Below are positions 8,596 through 61,110 of a stretch of DNA of 64,000 nt, in pieces; within the stretch, counting starts at the first letter, position 1; each line of letters starts with the position of its first letter. The DNA lies in NCBI RefSeq assembly GCF_051622035.1, contig NC_135355.1, positions 26,081,986 through 26,145,985 of the forward strand. The letters run 5' to 3'. The notes beneath the pieces were generated by a model. It did no database searches. It saw nothing but the letters and a program-made list of their open reading frames with translations, and had not been told where the DNA came from. This stretch comes from Arctopsyche grandis. Lineage: Eukaryota > Arthropoda > Insecta > Trichoptera > Hydropsychidae. The position numbers were made by a program, and so were the translations under genes.

Positions 8596-9083
8596 TCTAA
8601 TATATAATTTGGAAAGAGACTTTGTATATATATATATGTATGTATCCTTGGTTCGTTCGTTCGTTGGATGGTTGGTTCGTCGTCCGTAGATCGATGACGT
8701 CATCGAACACGTGATTCAAAATTTTTTTTTTTTCGATTCATAGGCGCCGATTTGATTTTTTTCGATTCAATGGATTCACCCCCGTGGGGGCGCGAGGAGT
8801 ATAGTCTCATGGGGCCCCGATGGGAGCGCAGGGGGGCGCAGCCCTAAAAGGCATTAGCTAAGGAGGGCGCAGAGGGGCGAAGCCCTAAACGGCAATAGCT
8901 AAGGGGGCGCAGAGGGGCGAAGCCCTAGAAGGCAAAGGCTCAGGGGGCGCCAAGGGCGAAGCCCTAGAAGGCCCAAAAAAGAATTTGATTTTTTTTTTAA
9001 CAAAATTAATGTTTACTATTAGATTAGTCATGTTTAAGCGGTTTATATTATAAATACTGAGCGAAGCCGGGTAATACAGCTAG
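8596..9083 (+). mobile_element. Non-autonomous Helitron, family 1
   Basis: It starts with TC after a host A and ends in CTAG before a host T, as Helitrons do. The 3' end, gcgaagccgggtaatacag followed by CTAG, resembles known insect Helitron termini. The 5' part carries the gaaagagactttgtat motif seen in the copies near 38050 and 46200. The middle holds a short GC-rich array of gggcgaagccctaga... units (about 8800-8975), related to the large minisatellite at 22178-23250. Confidence 0.75.
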
Positions 9084-10107
9084 TACTTTATAATAACTAA
9101 TTTTTTATATTTTTGCATTTTTATTTGTATTTTTTTGTATTTCGCATTTTTTGGATTTTTAATTGCATTTGTTTTTTATATGTTGTATTTATAAAATGCA
9201 ATAAATCTAGAAAATAAAGTTACTTTCACTAGTTTCATTTTTGAGAAAAACTTTAATTGCATACATATATGCGACGCCATACCTTGCAGTCAACCGGTAG
9301 TTTCCAATACTGAAGAGTGAAGCAATTTTTCTTTCTCGGCGAACGAACTCTACATGGTGCAATATTTGTGAGCTGATTTGAACTAATTTTAATCTTCCGA
9401 CCGCTTTGATATTTTATTTATTTTAACAACATAGGGGGCCAGCTCTAATTAAAGAAAGGAAATGTCTCTGATATATCGCTTCAGGAATTCATCAGAATCG
9501 ACTGTCAGATCGTCACGATGGCAACTGGCTATCAGAAATGCCAGCTAACCTCGCCTCGAATTAACTTCACTGGTTATATATTTATGTAGTTTAACAGCTA
9601 TAACAGTTAGTTTTTTCGCACTATCTCATATTCAATTTTCACAAAATTTCACGAATTCTGACCAAATCCTTATCAGCTCTAAGTTAGTACATAAAGAATA
9701 CAAATATAAATTTTCAGCTTGATACGTTCAGGGGTGTGGGCAGAATAATGGGCACAACATTTTTGACTTTTTTAAGAGGAAAAACTTCCGGTTTATTAAA
9801 TTTAGTGATTTTTTTTTATTTTCATCACATTGATACAAGAATTATACTTGATTTTTTTCGTGAAGAGCACACATGTTTAAGGGTCGAACAAAATAGTCGA
9901 AGAAAAATCGAACAAGAGTAAACTGCCACTTCCGGTTGACGGATGTTTACCAAATTTTATACATAACTTGGTATTAAGGTTTCTGAGAAAAACATAAAAA
10001 TCCTCCATTCTCTAGAGTAAAAATACTATTTCCGATTCAGGTAAAAATATTAGGGTATAAAATTTATAATTTCTATTAAATGTAAAAAGATACACCTATA
10101 AGGGGAG

Positions 10108-10505
10108 TGTCCGAGCCAACAAACCCACATGGCCGTGTTTTGGGCTCTTACGGGCGCGCACTCATTTTTACGAGGCGCGCTCATCTGTCAAACGAGACGC
10201 CCGCCATCCGCCGCCCGAGACGGTACTGGCGTAGCTGGTCTACCTTGCCTGACCAGCTGCAGCCAGCGTACTCATCCACAGCCCCCGCCATAGAGGGGCA
10301 CAGGCGCCGGCAAACTCCCCGGCTCGCCATTCTATGCGTCAATAAACGAGGATAACCCGAGCTGACTTGTCTAATTCCCCACCCCGCCCTGTTCCAGCAC
10401 GTGCTCCAGAGCGAGCTGAACACACATAGAGACGACGACACACACACACAGCCACTGGTCACCCAGCACACACACACACATTACAGCTCCTGAAGCTATC
10501 GTACA
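10108..10505 (+). repeat. 5' LTR of the BEL/Pao element
   Basis: 398 bp, TGT...ACA, base-for-base the same length as the 3' LTR and apparently identical; both encode the same chance reading frames on both strands. A CA-microsatellite lies near its 3' end and aataaa at about 10340. Confidence 0.93.
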
Positions 10506-10533
10506 TGGTCCTTCGAGTCGGGATGATCTACAG
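10506..10533 (+). promoter_or_regulatory. Primer-binding site, tRNA-Tyr type
   Basis: Directly after the LTR, tggtccttcgag is the complement of the 3' acceptor end plus CCA of insect tRNA-Tyr as I know it. A second stretch, gatctacag at 10525-10533, complements the anticodon-loop region of the same tRNA (CTGTAGATC). The acceptor match is strong; the second is inference. Confidence 0.6.
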
Positions 10534-10733
10534 CGCTGGACTCTGTCGTCGGCATACCAGGTTGGTCGTCAGCCATTTTGTCTCTCCCGTTATTCCTTTG
10601 TGTTGGCTGTCCGCCATCTTGTAATCCCGCTTCCCTTTTGTTTAATGGCTTGGGTTTTTCCCCCCCCTTCTGTTTCACGGCGCGGGTTTCCCCCCCCGTG
10701 ATATCGTTTCACCCCTCACAGTTTCTCGAAGTC

Positions 10734-11915
10734 ATGACGACTCAATTGCGACGTCGTCGTGGCGCCCTTCGGGGAAGGCTGACGAAGCTCACGAATCTGG
10801 TCGACCAATTACCGCCGAGCGTGACCCGACTCGAATATAAGCTCGAGGAGGCGCGCCAGCTGCGTCTCGATTTCTTGGACACGCAGTCCGAGTTAGAAGC
10901 GTTAGAGCTCAAAGAGGCGGAGGAGTCCGCGCTGACATGGGACGAATTTGAGGACGCCTATTTGGCATATACAGATGCAGTGCTGGACAAACTAGATGCC
11001 GCAAAGAGCATCACCTTGTCGGGAGGAACCTCCCCCCAAGCGACCTTTTCCCGGTCGATCAAACCGTCCGTCGCACTGTTGACCAACTCGCTACTCCCCC
11101 AGTGGACCAACCCATTCGTCTCCCGGCACTAGAACTGCCAACATTCGATGGGAAGCTCGAAGATTGGCCCCAGTTCTCCCAACGCTTCCAAGCCGCAATA
11201 GACGGCAGTAAAGTGGATTCAGTCCGCTTCCAATATCTTACTGCCAGTCTTACCGGTGAGGCCCGCAACATTCTCCGCGGCCTCGACTGTGCGGAAGGGG
11301 CCTTCACCACCGCTTGGTCCATTCTCGAGGACCGGTACAACAATAAGAGGTTGTTGGTCCAGAGACACGTCCAGGCATTGCTCAACGCTGAGCCTGTGGG
11401 CCATGACGTCGGTCAAGGGTTGCGGCGGCTGTTGGATGACATCACCATGCATACCCGCACCCTCGGGTCCATGGGCGTCCCCGTCGTCACATGGGACGAC
11501 ATCCTCGTATCTTCCTTGTCGTCCAAGCTGGACCGGTACACTGCCCGGCAATGGGACAAGCAATCGGTCAAGTACGAGGACTGGACATTCGACAAATTTC
11601 TCACGTTCCTCCGGTTTCAGTGCCAAGTGCAGATGAACGGCGAGGCCATCGAGAGGATGCACCAGCCGCGTCCGTGCATACAGGCGGTTACCGGGACTTC
11701 CGCTCATCACGAGAGAGTCAAGGCAGTTTCCTGCCCTAAGTGTCGGGGTGAACATGTGCTCCACTCATGCTCCTCGTTCCGGGACCTGGCCCCACCAGAG
11801 CGAATCAGCCTGGTCCGAAGGGCAAACCTCTGCAGGAACTGCCTGCGTCCTGGCCACCAGACGACAGCTTGCAAGAGCCAAACTCGTTGCTCCCACTGTC
11901 GTACCTACACCACAC
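10734..11915 (+). pseudogene. BEL/Pao Gag, frameshifted
   Basis: Starts at the ATG opening MTTQLRRRRGALRGR and carries an N-terminal coiled-coil-like stretch (EEARQLRLDFLDTQSEL). A 1-nt loss in a C-run near 11095-11100 moves the frame just before the DUF1759-type core (LPTFDGKLEDWPQF, FQYLTASLTGEA). Two zinc knuckles follow: CPKCRGEH and CRNCLRPGHQTTAC (CX2CX4HX4C). A second frameshift lies near 11905-11915, between Gag and the protease. Confidence 0.85.
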
Positions 11916-12640
11916 ACTTTTGCACGCCGAGTTTACTCGGACTCCAAAACACTTCAACGCTGCTCCTGTCCCAAGGGCTGCAAGCGTCGCTAACGAAGCG
12001 CCACACGCGCCTAGCCTTCATTCCCTGCATTCAACCGTCAGGGCAGCAACAACCCCTCGCACCATTCTGTTATCCACAGTGGTGTTGTCTGCCCGTGGAG
12101 GCGATGGGCGTTGGCATAAGTGTCGAGCACTGCTCGACAGTGGGTCAGAGATGAACATCATCTCCAATGACCTGCGTCAGCGGTTGAACATCCAACCGCA
12201 TGCATTGAATGCAAGCATGGTCGGGGTAGGCTGTAAGGAAACGCCAATCTCCCAGGGCGTAGTCTTGCACGTTGCTCCTCGGGGGTCGAGGAGCCATGCC
12301 AAAATAAAGGAGATGGAGTTTTTAGTGATCCCTAAGATCACGAACAATGTTCCATCCAGAGACCTGTCGGAATTACGGCTGGGGTTGCCCCAGCGTATTT
12401 ACCTGGCTGACCCCACATTTGATTCGCCGGGGGCAGTCGACATGGTCCTCGGATGCTTGGCATTCCATCAGTCCCTTAAAGACGGTAGGAGGAATATTTC
12501 CATTCCTCCCTCACTCGCCAGCGAACGGGGCTCTACCATTCACCTGTTGAACACTTCGTTCGGCTGGGTTGTTAGTGGGGAGCTGGGCTCAGTCCCAACA
12601 ACCAACCGCTCCGGGAACTGCCATCAAAAAGCTTCTCGTG
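11916..12640 (+). pseudogene. BEL/Pao aspartic protease (DUF1758 type)
   Basis: Reads LLDSGSEMNIIS, the retropepsin D-S-G active-site loop of BEL/Pao elements, followed by DMVLGCLAF and SFGWVVSGEL, which are characteristic of this domain. It lies in a different frame from the Gag core. Coding similarity fades after about 12600, where the pol gene should continue to reverse transcriptase. Confidence 0.8.
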
Positions 12641-12964
12641 ATCCGTCGGCGGACCGAAGAGTTCCGTTGCCAAAGCCTAGGGAACCCGCTTCTAAAAGAA
12701 GCCGCGGTAAACCCGCACCCGTTGTTCCTCATTTCATCCGACCTTCCCAACCCAGCTCCAAAAACTCCTGGTCAATTCCTAGCTGGCGAACCACTGGTTG
12801 CTCAACAGCGGGAGGATCTGCTCAATCAGCCCGCAGCACGGGCGCTACCGCACCAGCATCTGCAGCAGCGGGCAGAGATGGTCGCTGGAGGAGTGCGGCA
12901 CACTCCTTCAACAGCAACACCAGGAAGTCAGCCCAACGAGTAGCTCGACTACCGACCGAGCGGC

Positions 12965-13140
12965 ATGCAGAACATGGGGCGAGTCACGTTGGTGCTTCCT
13001 GGGCACGACGGCGTCGCACGAATTATCACCCTGTGCACTCAGAGGGGCATCACCGACAGGACAGCTGGCGAGACGCTCGTTGGCCCCCTGACCAGCCGAC
13101 TAGGCCTGGGTGCACTCACTGTTCTCCCGCCCCCATATAA
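12965..13140 (+). pseudogene. C-terminal remnant of BEL/Pao Pol
   Basis: The short frame GRVTLVLPGHDGVARIITL matches the conserved C-terminal module after integrase in BEL/Pao polyproteins (pattern GRV-x-PG-x-DG-x-R). It sits only about 350 bp past the protease, so about 3 kb of pol is missing. The sequence after it (13140-13545) is T-rich non-coding DNA with a repeated tgtgccaatgtagt motif. Confidence 0.65.
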
Positions 13141-13545
13141 TTTTGTCTTTTGTGTTTTTTCTTGTTCTGTGTGAAACTTATAACAAAAATGTTTGTGCCA
13201 ATGTAGTAGTGGTTTGCTTGTGGTGCGCTAATTGACGCTTGATCCTTTAAGTTAATTTTGTGTTTGTGCCAGTGTAGTTGGTTTGGTTGTGGTGCGCTAA
13301 TTGACGCTGTATCCATTAAGTTTGTTTTGTTTTCTTTTGGTTGCTAATGACACTTTACCCTTGTAGTAGTTGGTTTGGTTTTTTTTGTCGGTGTGCTATA
13401 ATGTTTTTTTTTGCACTTTTAACCATGGGGGCTGGCTTTAGTTCCTAAGAAGATGTTTGTTACCACTGCTCTGTTTGTTTGTTGTCTGCTTTGTTATTAT
13501 GTTAACTTTCTTGAAATATTGTGAATATTCCAACCCCGGGGAGTA

Positions 13546-13943
13546 TGTCCGAGCCAACAAACCCACATGGCCGTGTTTTGGGCTCTTACGGGCGCGCACT
13601 CATTTTTACGAGGCGCGCTCATCTGTCAAACGAGACGCCCGCCATCCGCCGCCCGAGACGGTACTGGCGTAGCTGGTCTACCTTGCCTGACCAGCTGCAG
13701 CCAGCGTACTCATCCACAGCCCCCGCCATAGAGGGGCACAGGCGCCGGCAAACTCCCCGGCTCGCCATTCTATGCGTCAATAAACGAGGATAACCCGAGC
13801 TGACTTGTCTAATTCCCCACCCCGCCCTGTTCCAGCACGTGCTCCAGAGCGAGCTGAACACACATAGAGACGACGACACACACACACAGCCACTGGTCAC
13901 CCAGCACACACACACACATTACAGCTCCTGAAGCTATCGTACA
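13546..13943 (+). repeat. 3' LTR of the BEL/Pao element
   Basis: 398 bp, the twin of 10108-10505. It is followed at 13944 by the gggag target duplication and then the interrupted repeat R1 resumes. Confidence 0.93.
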
Positions 13944-14356
13944 GGGAGTTACCATTTCCAGTCGACTTAAAAATTTGAAAAAAATAATATTAGTGTCGAT
14001 AAGAATTTCAGTAACCGATACTAAGTTTCAGTTCGATAGGACTAACGGTGTTCAAAAAATCCCCAAAATACAGACACACAGACACAGTTGAGTTGCTTAA
14101 CAATTCATTTGTAAGAAGTCATCTGGAATTTGCTAGTACTGAATACTTTCTAGCGCGTATATGTTAATAATATTTAGACGCGTAAATAAAAAAATCCATT
14201 CCAAATGCAATTCCAGATCATTGTGAAGAACCAGAATGATCATTTCGTTTCCCACTCTAGGAGGAAAATTTATTATTTTTGTTTTATGGATATTAGGATC
14301 CTATTCCAATGTCCAATCCAATCCCTTCGTGATTCATCATTATTTCAAATTAATTC

Positions 14357-20703: not shown

Positions 20704-21540
20704 TAATAATAATAAAAAAATTGAAAACTTTTTGTACCTGCGATTTTAGCACTATTGCATTTTCTCGCGGATGTCATTTTAAAATTTCGAAATACGAAAT
20801 GTATCACAATTTAAAAATAAATAGAAGTGATAGTATTAAAAGTATATCGTGCTTATTTTGTTTATTTTTAAAATTTTTATTTAAAATAAATACTCGCTCG
20901 TCTTTTATTTTGAAAAAAATCGATATTAACCGTCTAACAAATGGTATGAGTGGTTCATTTAGTTACTTTAAATTAACAATTATAGTGTGAATAGTCGTTT
21001 GAATATAATTGTAAAATACTAATTTAGTTGGCTTACGGACTATTTGTATAAGTGATATTTTTTTAATTTCAATGTCGTATTGTAATAAATTAAAGTAGGT
21101 ATAAATGTAAATTAAAACGGTCAATGAACTTGCTATTGCTTTGCAACCGGATACAAGTATGTATGTGAACTTAATCCATTTATTTTCGGTATTGCACCAC
21201 TTTACATTTTTTGTAAAACTATCATTGTTACCAGAAACGTTTTATAAATATACAGTTTATTCATTCGGTTTATTAAAGAGTAAAAGTGAGTCAGTGACTG
21301 TGAATGAATAAAGAAAATACTCCACGGAGACAACATGAGGTTTGTAAAATGTATTTTACGGTTTCAAATACAAGTATTTACGTGTATGAATTTAATTTAA
21401 TATTTATATCAAATTTACAGAAATAAAAGCTAGTACTTCATTTTAACAGCTTACGTCATAAAAATGTGTGAGTGGTCTTTGCTTTATTTGTATTCATTTG
21501 AGGCGGAAAAATAACGTAACAACCATAATTACGAAAGTTT
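20704..21540. other. AT-rich spacer without recognised feature
   Basis: Poly-A/T-rich sequence; no gene, terminal repeats or family match seen. Confidence 0.4.
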
Positions 21541-21547
21541 GAAATGT

Positions 21548-21722
21548 GCGCGCGCAGAATACGGGAGGAAAAGCCTGTTCCTCTTGTTCCGTTAAGTGAT
21601 TCCGTCCAAATTAAGTGAGTATGTACCGTTTACCATGCACCCTTTTTTTTTTATCTTTGCCTTCCGATATTTGGTTTTTCGTGCATTTCTAATTCGATCC
21701 CGTGAGGTGCACCCGGTCAGAA
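21548..21722. mobile_element. Half copy of the 60728-type palindromic MITE
   Basis: Starts in gcgcgcgcagaatacggga and runs through cctgttcctcttgttcc and ttgccttccgatattt to about cccgtgaggtgcaccc. It matches only the right arm of the complete copies at 46899 and 60728. Confidence 0.7.
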
Positions 21723-21954
21723 TATTTAAAAATAACAAGTAGTCAGTCAGCAGAAAATGAAACTTTATAGACAATATTGCAATTAATTAGGTAGATGATT
21801 TGTTGAAGAGGGTTGTAGATAGTGCGTGAGCACGTGCGAAATGTCGAGATGCGCGCGCATCCGAATGATACTCGTTTGACGTTTGTTTGGCTGTTGTCGT
21901 CTTGACCACTTGTACCAATCTTCAACGTTGCACGCACTAGTAATGGTACTAGTG

Positions 21955-22160
21955 CCAACTGACAAAAATGAATCTGACTATCTGTCAACATAATTCTGAC
22001 TATTTAATACAAATTATGACCAATCCAGTTTAAATTCTGACCATTCAATATAAATTCTGACCAATTATTATAAATTCTGACCATTTAATATTTATTCTAG
22101 TTCTAGTATTCTGACCGTTTAATATTAATTTTGACCAATGTAATATAAATTCTGACCAAA
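21955..22160 (+). repeat. Tandem array of about 23-bp tctgaccattyaatataaat units
   Basis: Seven to eight degenerate units, each with ctgacc followed by an AT-rich stretch. A similar array in the opposite orientation lies at 49915-50025. Confidence 0.7.
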
Positions 22161-22177
22161 AACGCCTTTGCCCCTAC

Positions 22178-23250
22178 GACCATTGTCATAGGGCAAAGGC
22201 TCAGGGGGGCACCGAGGCCGAATCCCTACATGGTAATGGCTCTGGGGGCGCCGAGGGCGAAGCCCTACAGGGTAAAGGCTCAGGGGGTGCCGAAGGCCAA
22301 GCCCTATAGGGAAAAGGCTCAGGGAGGTGCCGAGAGCGAAGCCCTACAAGGCAAAGGCTCAGTGGGCGCCGAGGTTGAAGCCCTACAGGGCAAAGGCTCT
22401 GGGAGGCGCCGAGGGCGAAGCACTACAGGGCAAAGGCTCAGGGGGTGCCGAGGGCGAAGCCCTACAGAGCAAAGGCTCTGGGGGCGCCGAGGGCGAAGCC
22501 CTATAGGGAAAGGCTCAGGGAGGTGCCAAGAGCGAAGCCCTACAGGACAAAGGCTCAGTGGGCGCCGAGGTTGAAGCCCTACAGGGCAAAGGCTCTGGGA
22601 GGCGCCGAGGGCGAAGCACAACAGGGCAAAGGCTCAGGGGGTGCCGAGGGTGAAGCCCTATAGGGCAAAGGCTCTGGGGGCGCCGAGGGCGAAGCCCTAT
22701 AGGGCAAAGGCTCTGGGAGGTGCCAAGAGCGAAGCCCTACAGGACAAAGGCTCAGTGGGCGCCGAGGTTGAAGCCCTACAGGGCAAAGGCTCTGGGAGGC
22801 GCCGAGGGCGAAGCACTACAGGGCAAAGGCTCAGTGGGCGCCGAGGTTGAAGCCCTACAGGGCAAAGGCTCTGGGGGCGCCGAGGATGAAGCCCTACAGG
22901 GCAAAGGCTCTGGCACTTAAAGTTGGTGCGCCTATAATTTTATTAAGAAATTTAGATGCAACGCGGCTTTGTAACGGCACTAGACTTTGTATAAAAAAAA
23001 TTAATGTCGAACGTGATAGAAGCGACCATTGTCATAGGGCAAAGGCTCAGCGGGCGCCGAGGGCGAAGCCCTACAGGGCAAAGGCTCAAGGGGTGCCGAG
23101 GGCGAAGCCCTATAGGGCAAAGGCTCAGGGAGGTGCCGAGGGCGAAGCCCTACACGGCAAAGGCTCAGGGGGCGCCGAGGGCGAAGCCCTACAGGGCAAA
23201 GGCTCTGGGAGGCGCCGAGGGCGAAGACCTACAGGGAAAAGGCTCTGGCG
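22178..23250 (+). repeat. GC-rich minisatellite, about 37-40-bp units
   Basis: Roughly 25 units of the form gggcaaaggctc + gcgccgagggcgaagcc + ctaca, in two blocks (22178-22915 and 23037-23247) separated by a Helitron helicase fragment. Units vary in a few positions and larger multi-unit blocks are themselves repeated. The long open frames across it (AEGEALQGKGSG-type) are a consequence of unit length and are not genes. A related short array sits inside the Helitron at 8596-9083. Confidence 0.9.
22908..23033 (+). pseudogene. Helitron Pif1-type helicase fragment 1
   Basis: Reads LKVGAPIILLRNLDATRLCN then GTRLCIKK, then, after a 1-nt frame change, SNVIEATIV. This is a conserved C-terminal motif of Helitron Rep/helicase proteins. 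It is bounded on both sides by minisatellite units; nothing else of the helicase remains. Confidence 0.75.
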
Positions 23251-23434
23251 CTTAAAGTTGGTCCGGCTATAGTTATATTAAGAAATTTAGATGCACCGCG
23301 GCTCTGTAACGACACTAGACTCTGCATAAAAAAATTAATGTCAAACGTGATAGAAGCGACCGTTGTCACAGGTTGTGCTAAAGGCGAGGATGCTTTTATC
23401 CCGCGAATCCCTTTAATACCTACTGATATGCCTT
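23246..23434 (+). pseudogene. Helitron Pif1-type helicase fragment 2
   Basis: A second copy of the same segment (LRNLDAPRLCN, SNVIEATVVTGCAKGEDAFI, PRIPLIPTDMPF) continuing further than fragment 1. It is cut off by an AT microsatellite at about 23434. Together with fragment 1 it shows that helicase piece plus minisatellite was duplicated as a unit. Confidence 0.8.
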
Positions 23435-23443
23435 TTATATATG

Positions 23444-23526
<83 letters not shown>

Positions 23527-23530
23527 ATGT
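23434..23530. repeat. (TA)n microsatellite with tatgtata interruptions
   Basis: About 95 bp of alternating TA directly abutting the truncated helicase fragment. Confidence 0.95.
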
Positions 23531-24551
23531 GTACTTACTGTGACATTTAGTTTTATATTTTATATATTTATATTATAATAATAGACTTTATTTTTTACAG
23601 CCGTCTAATTATTTTTTTATTATGCATAATCATTTTTCAGTAATATTTTAAACTAGACTACCTATTTTATAATATACATATGTATATAAAAAACAATGAA
23701 AATTTTACATGAAATTGTGAATATGGGAAGAGTATAAGTTCATTTTTATTATTTCAATTAAATACATGCATTTCATATACATATTTTTTGTTTATAGCAC
23801 TTCAATGCCACTGATAAGGAATTATGAAATATTGATTCTCTCTACATTTACGATTGTTATGTGCTTTACATGTGCTAATCCACTTATGTACATACATACA
23901 TATAATATTGCTTCTAACATACTAACCTGACTTCCAAACTCAAGATTACAAAATATATAGGGCGTATTTTTCCTACTATATTATATAATATGTGCACATA
24001 CATATTTTAATTAATCTTTTTTCATTTTTTTCTTTTTAGTATTTAGACTTTCTCCTATCACTATCCCATAAAACCTGTTGTATAAAAACTATTGTCTTCT
24101 GCTATGAACACCCATCTCAACCTTATATTATAAAATTCCTTCTTTTTTCATTTAAAAATAAGGGAAGACTATTAGTTTGTTTGATTTATTTTTTTCTTTG
24201 ATATCACATCTATGTATATATTTTTTTGTTCTTTATAGCAATCGTATATCTACAACACTGAAACTACTTCCACATTTAACTAGAAAATATGTGATAAAAA
24301 GAAAATACAACTTGAACTTGAAATTTACACAAAGGATCAAAAGTTTTGGGAAGTTTTAGTTTTTAATTTAATTTAAAAAATATAAAATATGTTTCAATAT
24401 ATATATATATATATAATATGATCAACGAGCTATTACATCCCGATTAATCTATGCAGCCCCCCCTCTATGAATTCTCACTGGTGACATCACTGGCTATGCA
24501 TAAGGGATTGACGTGATACTGGTGCAGAGACATAATTTCAATTATTTCTAT
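23531..24551. other. AT-rich spacer
   Basis: No gene or family match recognised; short tatata tract near 24400. Confidence 0.4.
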
Positions 24552-24731
24552 GATAAACGGATTATTTCACACATTGCGATCGCGCACACAACAATTGTTG
24601 CCACGAAAATCGCGTATACGGAATATCTGGCACTCGAATTTAGTATGATGGTTTGCATGCGTAGCCCTCGATGGGTGGCGCACGTTACTAATATATGTAG
24701 CTCTTGATTTGTGTGAAATAATCACCAAACC
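24552..24731. mobile_element. hAT-type MITE, family A variant
   Basis: Ends gataaacggattatttcacac and gtgtgaaataatcaccaaacc are inverted copies and resemble family A ends. The interior atatctggcactcgaattt motif recurs at 33340, 48365 and 50260. Confidence 0.7.
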
Positions 24732-25562
24732 ATTTTTAGGGGGAGAGCAGAAGTTATCTTTTTGGAAGAAGCTTCTGATAGACATAATTGAACTTTTAGT
24801 AACGAGTAATCGATATGGTTAAGATTCATAATATATCAAATGACATGCACATTCCTGGCCTGGCCAAATTTAGGAGGGAAATTCCCCCTTGTGAACCCCC
24901 AAATGACGTCATTTATTAGGCAATTTCTCGGAAATTTCCTCTTGGACAGAATAGAAGAATCTGAAACCCACAAATAAATTTTAAGGCGCGATGTATTGGG
25001 TGCGTGTAATCATATTCTTTTCTTGAGCACTGCAAAAAGGACACGAGATTAACATGCTGTTCCACAAACCGTATCGTATCTAGTTCTGACCATTTTTTTC
25101 TATATACATACTTTCAACGCTGAGCTCTTTGCCATCATTTTGGAACGCCACTCTATCGACAACTATCAACAACTATCAAACAATATTTTCACCATTAAAT
25201 GCACAATATTTGTCCCAAAAATGTATAGCTCAATGATTGCTATTGATAGCTCATTCAGTTGCCGTTTTATTATTGTCAAAATTTTGGGCTTACACGGGCT
25301 GTGTCCTCAGGCATTGTGGACGTTACCGAAGCTCTTGTGGCTGCTGTGTGTCATATTAGTAAATGACAAATATAAGAGAAATATGTGGATAAGGCCTTAG
25401 CTATATAAAGACGTCATTTGATGACTCCTCTTAATCACGATTAGTAGGTTTTTTTAATTTCACGACAATGTCCAAGTCTGATTTTGAAGATTTAATTTGG
25501 TGCAATCGGAATATTTTTTATTGGACCAACTATCGTTCATTGTGAAATTAAAATAATGTTAT
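24732..25562. other. Spacer without recognised gene
   Basis: Mixed-composition sequence; no coding exon or terminal repeat supported. Confidence 0.35.
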
Positions 25563-26310
25563 TGTAGGCGGGGTAGGTAAGTGTTGACCGTATCCCGGCC
25601 TAACGAAACACTGTTGTGCTAGTTTTATAAAGTTTTATTGTTTGCCTATGGTTGTACAAAGGTATGGTATTTGTGGGCAAAAGTATGTCGTTCAGCGGTC
25701 TCTGGATATGGTAGAGTGTCGCTGGCTCGGCATTCAGCTATGTTCAGCAAGTCTCTGGATACGGCAGTGTGTTGCTGGCTCGGTGTTCGGCTATGTTCGG
25801 AAGGTCTCTGGATACGGCAGTGTGTTGCTGGCTCGTCCGGCTGGTTGATCTTCCAAGTCCGCGTAGTGTAGTGGTGGCTGGTCAGGAGCTGTATGTCGAC
25901 GCTTGCTGCTGTGGGTCGACTGGGGTTGTTTGGGTTGTACCTCCTTTTATAGTGTTTCTGGAATCGCCTGACCGATGGTGGTGGTTTGTTGATGCGTAAG
26001 AAAGGAATGCACTTTTGTCGAGGCGTAGAATTTTCTGGAACGCTTGATGGAAGTGGTTATTGATGCGTACGAGCATTTAGTTGTTGATGCGTACAAGAGG
26101 AATTTGCTTTCGTCGAGGCGTAGTATTTTCTGGAATGCTTGATGAAAGTGGTCGTACGAGCTTTTAGTTGTTGATGCGTACAAGAGGAATTTGCTTTCGT
26201 CGAGGCGTAGTATTTTCTGGAATGCTTGATGCTGTTCCGCTCGATGTATTTTGTTGTTGCGGAATATTCTCGAAGGTTTCGATGACGATGACGACGACGA
26301 GATTCCTACA
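25563..26310 (-). mobile_element. Solo LTR with internal tandem repeats
   Basis: 748 bp beginning tgtagg and ending cctaca, with a 4-bp duplication ttat on each side (25559-25562, 26311-26314). Minus orientation is suggested by AATAAA in the complement near 25635. It holds two internal arrays: about 55-bp units around 25690-25840 (ggtctctggatacggcagtg) and about 65-110-bp units around 25990-26230 (ttttctggaatgcttgatg). No internal retroelement sequence adjoins it. Confidence 0.7.
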
Positions 26311-26606: not shown

Positions 26607-27954
26607 CAGGGCTGATGAAAGGGGGGGGGAGTGGGGGTAAAGTTCCAGGGTCCGGACTACTCGAGGGACCCCATGTCAGAAATCATACTTTCATATTCAA
26701 TTATTTAAAAAAAAATTACAACCAACATATAGGTATTTTTCTAGTAGTTCTGATAGATTTTTTGCATAATAATATATGGAGGATGAACGAATGAGACGAC
26801 TGGCATGTTAATGCACGTGTTTATTATATGACAGCTGAAGACAGAGTGAGTAGTAGCTCTCCGAACCCAGCCGAGTTGGTTCCCACTCGCAGGAAGGCAA
26901 CCAAACTCGACCATGTCGTATAAGCGAGCCGCCACATCACTCCCCCCCCAGCATTAGCGATACCAAAATTACAAAGAAACAAATTTTACAAAAGAAAAAA
27001 ATTATTGTTACACAAAGAGAAAAAATTATTACGTGGGGAGAAAAAAAAATTGTTGACGTGGGTCATCCGCTGTGTACATAGGTGTACCGCCCTGAATGGT
27101 CGGTAGATTCGAGGGCGGTGACGTCGCGAGCAGGACGGTGGCTGGTCCGATGGTCGCGCCGATGCGATGCGATGCTGCGGCGGCGCCGCTCTTCCGAGGC
27201 TGATGTCGGTTGGTGGGGCGGCGGGGGCGGCAGGGGCATCGATGTGGTTGATGATACTCCGAGCTGGACTGTGAGTCGTTGTGGCTCGTGGAGGTGTTGT
27301 AGCGCTACCGCCCGTCTCGGCGTGACGACGCTCGTGGGGACGGACGGGGCCTTGATGATGATGATGATGATGATGGTGCTGAGGTGGTGTGTGATGAATC
27401 TTGTGGTGCTGGATGACCGTTCTATGTGTAGTGGATCGCGCATGACTCCACATCCAGCTGTCACGATCGTCGTCTCATTCGCTCCCCCATTTTTGTAAGC
27501 ACCTGTCATCGACGTTGTGGCTGGACGTCGGTAGGTAGGTAGGTAGCCGTGTCTGCTCGTTTATTGTCACCCGCGGGCCGCGACGCGCTCTGTTGATGGC
27601 GATGGGGGCGCGGCGGGTAGCTTCTCCCGTCTGACTCGGCGAGGCAGGGATGAGCGGCATGTTGAAATTGATCGAGGCTGCGTGGCTCGATGTCGGGGGT
27701 CACCAGTATGGAGGATGAACGAATGAGACGACTGGCATGTTAATGCACGTGTTTATTATATGACAGCTGAAGACAGAGTGAGTAGTAGCTCTCCGAACCC
27801 AGCCGAGTTGGTTCCCACTCGCAGGAAGGCAACCAAACTCGACCATGTCGTATAAGCGAGCCGCCACAAATATATCTATGAGATATTTTTTTTTTAGTTT
27901 TTAAGGGCCCGCAAAAATTTTTACCAAGGCCCGGGATTCCTCTCGGCAACCCTG
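26607..27954. mobile_element. hAT MITE (cagggc ends) split by a miniature LTR element
   Basis: Left part 26607-26776 and right part 27869-27954 together match the intact copy at 43210-43504. Ends are cagggc and accctg; flanks catatatg and catatacc agree at six of eight bases. Confidence 0.75.
26777..27868 (-). mobile_element. Miniature LTR retrotransposon (TRIM-like)
   Basis: Two apparently identical 160-bp direct repeats (26777-26936, 27709-27868) read TGTGG...CCTCCA on the minus strand. A primer-site-like tggtgacccccga follows the 5' LTR and a polypurine tract (gggggggag) precedes the 3' LTR, both on the minus strand. A duplication aatata lies on each side (26771-26776, 27869-27874). The 770-bp interior has no recognisable gag or pol; the open frames in it are low-complexity. 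Confidence 0.85.
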
Positions 27955-37022: not shown

Positions 37023-42915
<5,893 letters not shown>

Positions 42916-45795: not shown

Positions 45796-46187
45796 ATAGT
45801 GGTTTTATTCGGATTCACTCGATATGTGAAATATAAACCGCTTAAACATGTCTAATCTAATATTAAAAATTAATTTTGTTTTTTATTAATTTTATTTGAA
45901 TCGAAAAAAAATAATATTCAATGACAGCCAATCAGAAAGGAATGGTTTTTTTTTAAATATACGGGAATCGGAACTGAAACAGGAATCCGGATCCGGAACT
46001 GAAACAGGAATCAAGAACTGGTAATGAAAAAGTAATCCGGATCCGGAACTGAAAAAGGAATCCAAATCGAAAATGAAATTGAAATTGATATCGATGTCGT
46101 CGTCATAGAAAATTTGATTTTTTCGATAACGTGACGGATTCTACGAACCAAAAATTACATACATACATACAAAGTCTCTTTCGAAAT
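45796..46187 (-). mobile_element. Helitron family 1 copy, minus
   Basis: Its 3' end region (tagtggttttattcggattcactcg) is at the left and the tacaaagtctctttcgaaat 5' motif at the right. The interior has a ggaatccggatccggaactg repeat. The terminal CTAG is mutated. Confidence 0.6.
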
Positions 46188-46735: not shown

Positions 46736-46858
46736 TAAATAAAAATTACGACAGTTCAATTGCTTAAATATTATATTTTTTTCGCTTCAAATAAATTTAA
46801 TAAAATAACAAATGAATATTTACTATTAGATTAGCAATGTTTAAGCTGTTTATATTAA

Positions 46859-47310
46859 CCGCTTAGACGCCCAGCCGACGCGCTGGGCGTACAATTGAGG
46901 TCTACGTGACGAGACAGAATGTTAAACGACAGAAAACGCAAATATCGGAAGGCAAAGATCGAAAATCGAAAGATCTTAAGTCGAAAGATCAAAAAAAAAT
47001 GGTGCATGGTAAACGGTACATACTCACGTATGTACATACTCACTTAATTTGCACGAGCAGGATACAACAGGAACAAGAGGAACATGCTTTTCCTCCCGTA
47101 TTCTGCGCGTGCACATTAATACGGGAGGAAAAGCCTGTTCCTCTTGTACCTGTTGTATCCTGCTCGCGCAAATTATTTTTGATCTTTCGATTTTCGATCT
47201 TTGCCTTCCGATATTTGCGTTTTCTGTCGTTTAACATTCTGTCTCGTTATAGAGACCAGTACAATTGATACGGCTGTTTGCGCCTTAAGGCGCGTTGGGC
47301 GTTCAAACGG
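46859..47310. mobile_element. TTAA-flanked (piggyBac-type) MITE carrying another MITE
   Basis: Inverted ends ccgcttagacgccca / tgggcgttcaaacgg, flanked by TTAA at 46855-46858 and 47311-47314. Its own sequence is short; most of the span is the palindromic MITE at 46899-47258. Confidence 0.75.
46899..47258. mobile_element. Palindromic MITE, family P, complete copy 1
   Basis: Near-perfect foldback: ggtctacgtgacgagac... mirrored to ...gtctcgttatagagacc, with arms through gcaaatatcggaaggcaaag and centre gcgcgtgcacattaatacgg. Flanked by gtacaattga on both sides (46889-46898, 47259-47268). Confidence 0.85.
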
Positions 47311-58486: not shown

Positions 58487-59518
58487 TGATGGCTAAATAC
58501 GGTGATAGAACATCAAATTTGGCCCGTATTAATAATGAAAAAATAAAAGCGTTTAAAAACAGTTAATACATACCGAGGATCCAATGTAGATTTTTATTTT
58601 ATTAAAATAAAGTAACATAATCAAAAAAATATATATGTAATGTATTTACAAATAAATGTATGTTTGTTATAAATATTATAACAAACATACAAATTGCGTT
58701 ATGGCATGTATTACGTAATAATTTAAAATACATAATACATACTTTAACCTACATATGTATATATTTTAGATAATGCATTTTGAACACGTATGAATTCGTC
58801 GACGAAACTTTTTTTGAATATGCTCTTACGCACTAATAGTGAATACTGATGTTTTATATTCCGTCAAACTGATTTATGAGGACTTTCTAAATTATTGACA
58901 TATAACAATTGACTTTATGGGCGACAAGAAGATGAAGAATACTTTTCATTTAGAATTCTTAAGCGTAATTTTAAGAAAAGTGCATTTTGACCGTTTGTCG
59001 GCAAATCTCGAGTGCTCATATTCCAGGTAGTTGTCCCTTGCAATAGAACTTTTAAAACTTTTTTTTTAATTACCCATTTTCCGGTCTTGTACTTCTAAGA
59101 AAAATATTATATCTCTATTTAGTTTCTCTCCAATGATATACGATTATTTTGAAGAATAAGTCAGGGATATTTTTATCTTAAGGATACATTATTCATTGAG
59201 TCGATACGTTTATCCGAATAGATATACTTTTTTTTAAATTAAAATTTAGTTAAGGGTTAATAGCTTTTAAAATTTATTAATTTCATTTTTATGTTCAATA
59301 TTTGAAAATTTTGATACAAATTGATGTATGTATATTTAGTGCGAGTACAAATATTATGTATAACGTAAGAAATCATTGCTTTCCATATGTATGTATGTAT
59401 GTACTTATATGTATACATATACATATGCAATTATATTATATACCTCTTAATTTTTTCAATTTTGGAATTTTCATGTTTTATTTTATGCAAATAGAATGTC
59501 TATTCGCTAATTAATTAA
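58487..59518. other. AT-rich spacer
   Basis: No gene or repeat recognised. Confidence 0.4.
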
Positions 59519-59761
59519 TTCTGTGCGCGCACATTAATACGGGAGGAAAAGCCTGTTCTTCTTGTTCCTGTTGTATCCTGCTCACGCAAATTAAGTGAGT
59601 ATGTATCGTTAAGTGCAAATTAAGTGAGTATGTATGTATCGGTGCATGGTAATGCACCATTTTTTTTTTGATCTTTCGACTTAAGATCTTTCGATTTTCG
59701 ATCTTTGCCTTCCGATATTTGCGTTTTCTGTCATTTAACATTCTATCAAGTCACGGAGACC
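59519..59761. mobile_element. Family P MITE, right half
   Basis: Begins at the palindrome centre (gtgcgcgcacattaatacgg) and ends cacggagacc; the left arm is missing. It abuts a LINE 3' fragment. Confidence 0.75.
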
Positions 59762-59815
59762 GTTAAAATAGATATAAGATGTATTGTGAAGATAATTTAG
59801 TAATAATAAAAAGCA

Positions 59816-60727: not shown

Positions 60728-61110
60728 CCCGGTCTCCGTGACGGGCCGGAATGTGAAATTACCGAAAACGCAAATATCGGAAGGCAAAGATCGAAAATCG
60801 AAAGATCTTAAGTCGAAAGATCAAAAAAAAATGGTGCATGGTACTCACTTAATTTGCGCGAGTAGGATACAACAGGAACAAGAGGAACAGGATTTACCTC
60901 CCGTATTCTGCGCGCGCACAGTAATATGGGAGGAAAAGCCTGTTCCTCTTGTTCCTGTTGTATCTTGTTCGCGCAAATTAAGTGAGTATGTACCGTTTAC
61001 CATGCACCCTTTTTTTTTAATCTTTCGACTTAAGATCTTTCGATTTTTGATCTTTGCCTTCCGATATTTGCGTTTTCGGTCATTTCACATTCCAGCCCGT
61101 GAGGTAGACC
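60728..61110. mobile_element. Palindromic MITE, family P, complete copy 2
   Basis: About 383 bp foldback with 8-bp duplications tctgtacg (60720-60727, 61111-61118). Arms read ggtctccgtgacgggccgga and the complement near 61090, with the same interior as copy 1. Confidence 0.85.

Follow-up and report, generated by a model that had tools for sequence, protein, structure and literature searches.

The locus at 22.2-23.4 kb of the window (the whole stretch of 64,000 nucleotides of Arctopsyche grandis DNA analyzed here) is probably a non-functional relic, which we suggest was formed when a minisatellite became joined to a piece of a helicase gene, after which the resulting module was tandemly duplicated and decayed. 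The underlying observation of an earlier note on this DNA, namely two helicase pieces that are each preceded by a GC-rich tandem array, is confirmed. The parts follow one another along the locus as segment end, array 1, segment 1, array 2, segment 2 and CAKGED (Table 1), and no sign of function was found there.

Table 1. Coordinates within the window of the features of the array-helicase locus, its flanks and the related Helitron-like elements.
Feature	Position	Strand	Remarks
AT-rich 20-bp tandem repeat	21992-22158	.	TRF, 8.6 copies; directly upstream
Inverted scrap of array unit, 13 bp (10 bp exact)	22164-22176	-	left of array 1
Truncated leftmost helicase-segment end, 16 bp	22177-22192	+	identical to 23023-23038; last two bases overlap array start
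Array 1	22191-22898	+	18 units of 38-40 bp, five-unit higher-order period
Helicase segment 1, preceded by 15-bp partial unit (22899-22913)	22899-23036	+	partial Pif1 2B domain, one frameshift
Array 2	23037-23233	+	5 units of 38-40 bp
Helicase segment 2, preceded by 15-bp partial unit (23234-23248)	23234-23434	+	runs into CAKGEDAFIPRIPLIPTDMPF without array, ends at (TA)n
(TA)n microsatellite	23436-23528	.	TRF; helicase reading stops here
Helitron-like non-autonomous element, 488 bp	8596-9083	+	A|TCTAATA...CTAG|T; four units at ~8811-8972
Related element B	37866-38093	-	same pattern of TC start, CTAG end, A/T flanks
Related element C	~45796-46185	-	25-bp tandem repeat; 3' end CTAT instead of CTAG
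Related element D	46759-46857	+	3' part only

The array units were delimited at GGGCAAAGGCTC, which gave a first cut of 38-41 bp, and once the array-terminal units had each been shortened by one base, all 23 units of the two arrays measured 38-40 bp. The units had previously been described as GC-rich and 37-40 bp long; the GC-rich repeat units stand and the length is now narrowed. TRF reported array 1 at 22190-22910 (period 39, 18.3 copies) and array 2 at 23036-23245 (period 39, 5.3 copies), and it also detected a 334-bp period over 22699-23372 that joins both arrays. The core of the unit, GGGCGAAGCCCTA, occurs 27 times in the window when up to two mismatches are allowed, against 0.34 occurrences expected and a maximum of 2 in 100 shuffles; 23 of these lie in arrays 1 and 2, and the other four at 8834-8966. 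A perfect palindrome is present in 8 of the 23 units, and the hairpin of one unit (23155-23194), folded on both strands, was slightly better than shuffles (z -1.30 and -1.11), whereas two folded units of the 8.8-kb array were no better than shuffles (z +0.45). Exact unit patterns had no match in the viral and prokaryote DNA collections, but these may omit the window's own genome and the result carries little weight; comparison of the window with Rfam returned nothing at gathering score.

That both helicase fragments carry a Pif1-type motif of the Helitron kind, as had been proposed, was corroborated by domain searches. Piece 1 (22904-22999) matches PF21530 at E=8.2e-13 over profile positions 14-44 of 47 and piece 2 (23239-23436) at E=6.1e-7 over positions 14-47, both above the Pfam cut-off. 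The Pif1_2B_dom match of both segments begins at profile position 14 (13 for one of them in a second Pfam run), so that the first 12-13 profile positions are absent on the array side in each case. Segment 2 translates from 23242 as ALALKVGPAIVILRNLDAPRLCNDTRLCIKKLMSNVIEATVVTGCAKGEDAFIPRIPLIPTDMPF, and in a comparison with the PDB, which covered piece 2 only, the sole match at E<=1 was the Helraiser Helitron transposase (7lcc; residues 1343-1405, E=3e-13). The resemblance to Helraiser extends over 62 residues, covering the 2B domain together with the residues that follow, but unlike Helraiser the locus keeps only the 2B piece: Pfam searches in six frames of 21000-25993 gave nothing at E<=0.05 beyond the two 2B pieces, neither a Rep (HUH) domain nor a helicase motor domain. 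Given the absence of Rep and motor domains from this interval, the helicase locus is to be regarded as a relic and not as a gene. An alignment of the two segments places one extra A, the frameshift, within an A-run of segment 1, and their first 90 in-frame bases contain 10 differences, six nonsynonymous and four synonymous; on these sequence grounds the helicase pieces look decayed. Relatives of the helicase piece were also sought in the viral DNA collection, where 98 pattern matches were obtained and none was confirmed by tblastn.

The claim that array and helicase segment were duplicated together is upheld by junctions that agree between the two arrays on the left as well as on the right. 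On the left, 28 bp beginning CGACCATTGTCATAGG are identical at both arrays, from 22177 and from 23023, which makes the common context noted earlier before each block an exact one, and leftward of it the identity breaks off at once. Array 2 is preceded by a whole helicase segment and array 1 by only 16 bp of helicase-like sequence. On the right, each array closes with a 15-bp partial unit, GGGCAAAGGCTCTGG at 22899 and GGGAAAAGGCTCTGG at 23234, after which both arrays pass into C(A/G)CTTAAAGTTGG, the LKVG codons, and the array therefore adjoins the LKVG side of the helicase segment. Aligned over 341 columns, the modules at 22699-23038 and 23034-23372 show 88.6% identity. At its far end the final copy reads VVTG-CAKGEDAFIPRIPLIPTDMPF, with VVTG running straight into CAKGED without an array.

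This last junction bears directly on the origin of the unit. In the history proposed by the earlier note, a minisatellite expanded within the helicase gene, at the place that encodes TGCAKGED, and the module was duplicated afterwards; on this view the unit would have arisen there, and it is true that both left junctions fall at that codon position and that a gapped alignment of the full unit to the helicase DNA at that point exists. Growth at TG^CAKGED followed by duplication predicts, however, that an array precedes CAKGED in the last copy; such an array is absent there and adjoins LKVG instead, so this history is not supported. Moreover, the alignment of the unit with the helicase DNA at the CAKGED join is not significant (shuffle fraction 0.056 for 60 bp and 0.21 for 185 bp), on which grounds derivation of the unit from helicase DNA was rejected, and units without helicase occur at 8811-8972. 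We consider an origin by expansion within the gene improbable. A tandem-duplication junction is the better reading of the join at CAKGED, with a shared ACAGG, 5 bp of exact microhomology common to the helicase DNA and the unit; the likeness at the junction is between ACAGG-ttgt-GC-t-AAAGGC in the helicase and ACAGG-GC-AAAGGC in the unit.

It can alternatively be speculated that the array was inserted when a staggered break in the helicase gene was repaired, so that a segment of about 123 bp came to stand on either side of the array, with segment-array-segment-CAKGED as the initial product. The left segment would subsequently have lost all but 16 bp, and the duplication of one module would have led to the same final arrangement. 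Such a history explains why 16 bp of helicase remain to the left of array 1 and why no array stands at CAKGED, and a fold-back or filler event is hinted at by the inverted scrap of the unit (10 bp) that borders array 1 on the left. The sequence of 22160-22210, folded as single-stranded DNA, reaches -12.7 kcal/mol (z -3.21), and in it the scrap can pair with the start of array 1. Nevertheless, 60 of 3000 random 64-mers of the window match the inverted unit equally well, and derivation of the scrap from the array unit is for this reason only suggestive; an extra truncation is required as well. Insertion by staggered-break repair thus appears unlikely, if still worth serious consideration. The DNA upstream of the locus also contains, at 21545-21703, a member of a partly self-complementary repeat family found again at 46899-47257, 59518-59762 and 60731-61110.

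Read from this single locus, the history that we favor, a join followed by module duplication and decay, would have begun when a GC-rich minisatellite, probably associated with Helitrons, was joined to a 5'-truncated Helitron helicase just upstream of the LKVG codons. The array together with about 123 bp of helicase would then have been tandemly duplicated, most likely through unequal exchange or replication slippage, with the duplication junction falling where helicase DNA and array unit look alike, and the product would have been array-segment-array-segment-CAKGED. Array 1 may also have been enlarged by the copying of five-unit blocks, and the helicase pieces decayed. The anatomy, the common junctions, the order of the parts, the decay and the five-unit period can be read from the sequence itself, whereas the priority of the join to the helicase, the type of exchange, the relative timing and a Helitron origin of the array are inferences. 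Against this proposal, unit and helicase do not resemble each other significantly beyond the 5 bp of exact microhomology. In the model of Haber and Louis, as outlined in PMC6947457, minisatellites originate when short flanking repeats undergo slippage or unequal exchange. The locus resembles this model in having a 5-bp repeat at the duplication junction and then an expansion, but differs in that the duplicated piece consists of an array plus a gene piece, whereas that of the model is a single motif.

The five-unit period of array 1 shows in the similarity of its units, which is greatest at a distance of five (mean score 33.2) and was equalled at lags 1-9 in none of 5000 shuffles of unit order; a self-comparison of array 1 at an offset of 197 bp gives 93.4% identity in 528 columns. 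Evidence on the relative timing of this growth and the module duplication is weak: array 2 is about 91% identical to the best stretches of array 1, which is close to the 93.4% within array 1. We also considered array 2 as a copy of one five-unit block of array 1. Its best registers against array 1 are u2, u7 and u12 (scores of 161, 156 and 161, with all others at 152 or below). The best single register was, however, attained in 25 of the 120 possible unit orders, and for the phase sum the figure is 10 of 120, the natural order counted in both cases; the natural order ranks only 4th among 24 cyclic orders against the five-unit phase of array 1. The idea was dropped after these order tests.

The same unit type had been reported inside a non-autonomous Helitron at 8800-8975. 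Four units indeed lie within the element at 8596-9083, which has a TC start, a CTAG end that fits the CTRR pattern and an insertion between A and T, but a 3' hairpin was not seen: folding of the terminal 55 nt was no better than that of shuffled sequence (z +1.08), and a stem scan found none. A palindrome (hairpin) near the 3' end is listed among the features of Helitron termini (PMC6544945). Given that no such hairpin was seen, we call the element Helitron-like only. The four related elements of the window share conserved ends and differ in their middles. No array was found in the middle of B or of D, the latter being a 3' fragment, and the GC-rich unit is carried by one of the four, a count that includes this fragment. 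The suggestion that the array may travel with Helitrons consequently retains one carrier, at 8596-9083, while the other three related elements are without the unit. The pattern of the element ends had no match in the viral DNA collection.

Two further readings were considered. The locus might be part of a still-mobile non-autonomous Helitron with the arrays as working parts, and the unit type is indeed common to the locus and the element at 8596-9083. Yet the unit is present in only one of the four related elements, and ends of this element family were found at 21.5-25 kb neither by the 3'-end scan nor among the self-BLAST matches listed (at least 40 columns, at most 80% TA/AT). A search of the window for CTAGT with a strict stem before it likewise found none, although ends of another family could have escaped these searches. 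We judge a still-mobile element to be highly improbable. The other reading takes the 39/40-bp unit (a GGGC-GAA-GCCC palindrome, then TACAG) for a multiplied relative of the Helitron 3' end GCGAAGCC...TACAGCTAG, with failed rolling-circle termination having made the arrays, which would then serve as exchange sites that splice pieces of Helitron coding sequence. The match of the unit to the 3' end amounts to 8 bp (GCGAAGCC), with shuffle fractions of 0.065, 0.37 and 0.12; the idea that the unit was copied from a Helitron 3' end is not supported, and we consider this scenario highly improbable as well.

Tandem repeats are known from relatives of Helitrons. DINE-TR1 is described as carrying central tandem repeats (PMC9957191), Cg_HINE of the Pacific oyster as elements that each combine flanks and tandem array in a way of their own (PMC7492417), and DINE-1, DINE-TR1 and HINE as Helentrons with sub-terminal inverted repeats (PMC4067079). 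The element at 8596-9083 is similar to DINE-1, DINE-TR1 and HINE, Cg_HINE included, in having a tandem array mid-element between Helitron-like ends; this array and the differing middles of the related elements in the window have parallels in the literature (PMC7492417, PMC9957191). The element differs from Helentrons and their sub-terminal inverted repeats in having TC/CTAG ends between A and T. Unlike DINE-1, DINE-TR1 and HINE, the array at 22.2-23.4 kb adjoins a helicase relic, and in its surroundings no recognised ends were detected. A module of array and helicase such as that at 22191-23434 is not described in the title of any paper among the literature matches listed.

In our analysis the locus is best read as a neutral relic of the kind known from tandem repeats in Helitron relatives. 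As it stands it is an ordinary relic and a small addition, yet we contend that it illustrates clearly, at a single locus, how a minisatellite can be copied as one module with a piece of a transposon gene, and its window also exemplifies short Helitron-like elements with differing internal arrays. If the array should prove to occur mainly in such elements genome-wide, this would extend what is known of Helentrons to elements with TC/CTAG ends.

The window has a GC content of 34.9%, and its further content (an exon of isocitrate dehydrogenase, a non-LTR reverse transcriptase and an LTR element with DUF1759) suggests the genome of an arthropod or a similar animal. The LTR retrotransposon, at 10102-13946, has repeats of about 409 bp and encodes DUF1759 above the cut-off and an aspartyl protease just below it; given that its LTRs are 99.3% identical, it was probably inserted recently. 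A (TA) tract at 39910-40462 is uninterrupted for 553 bp (100% matches by TRF), and its purity may mark either a young expansion or an assembly artefact. Finally, a 162-bp direct repeat (26775-26936 and 27707-27868) is 100% identical between its two copies, the starts of which lie 932 bp apart.
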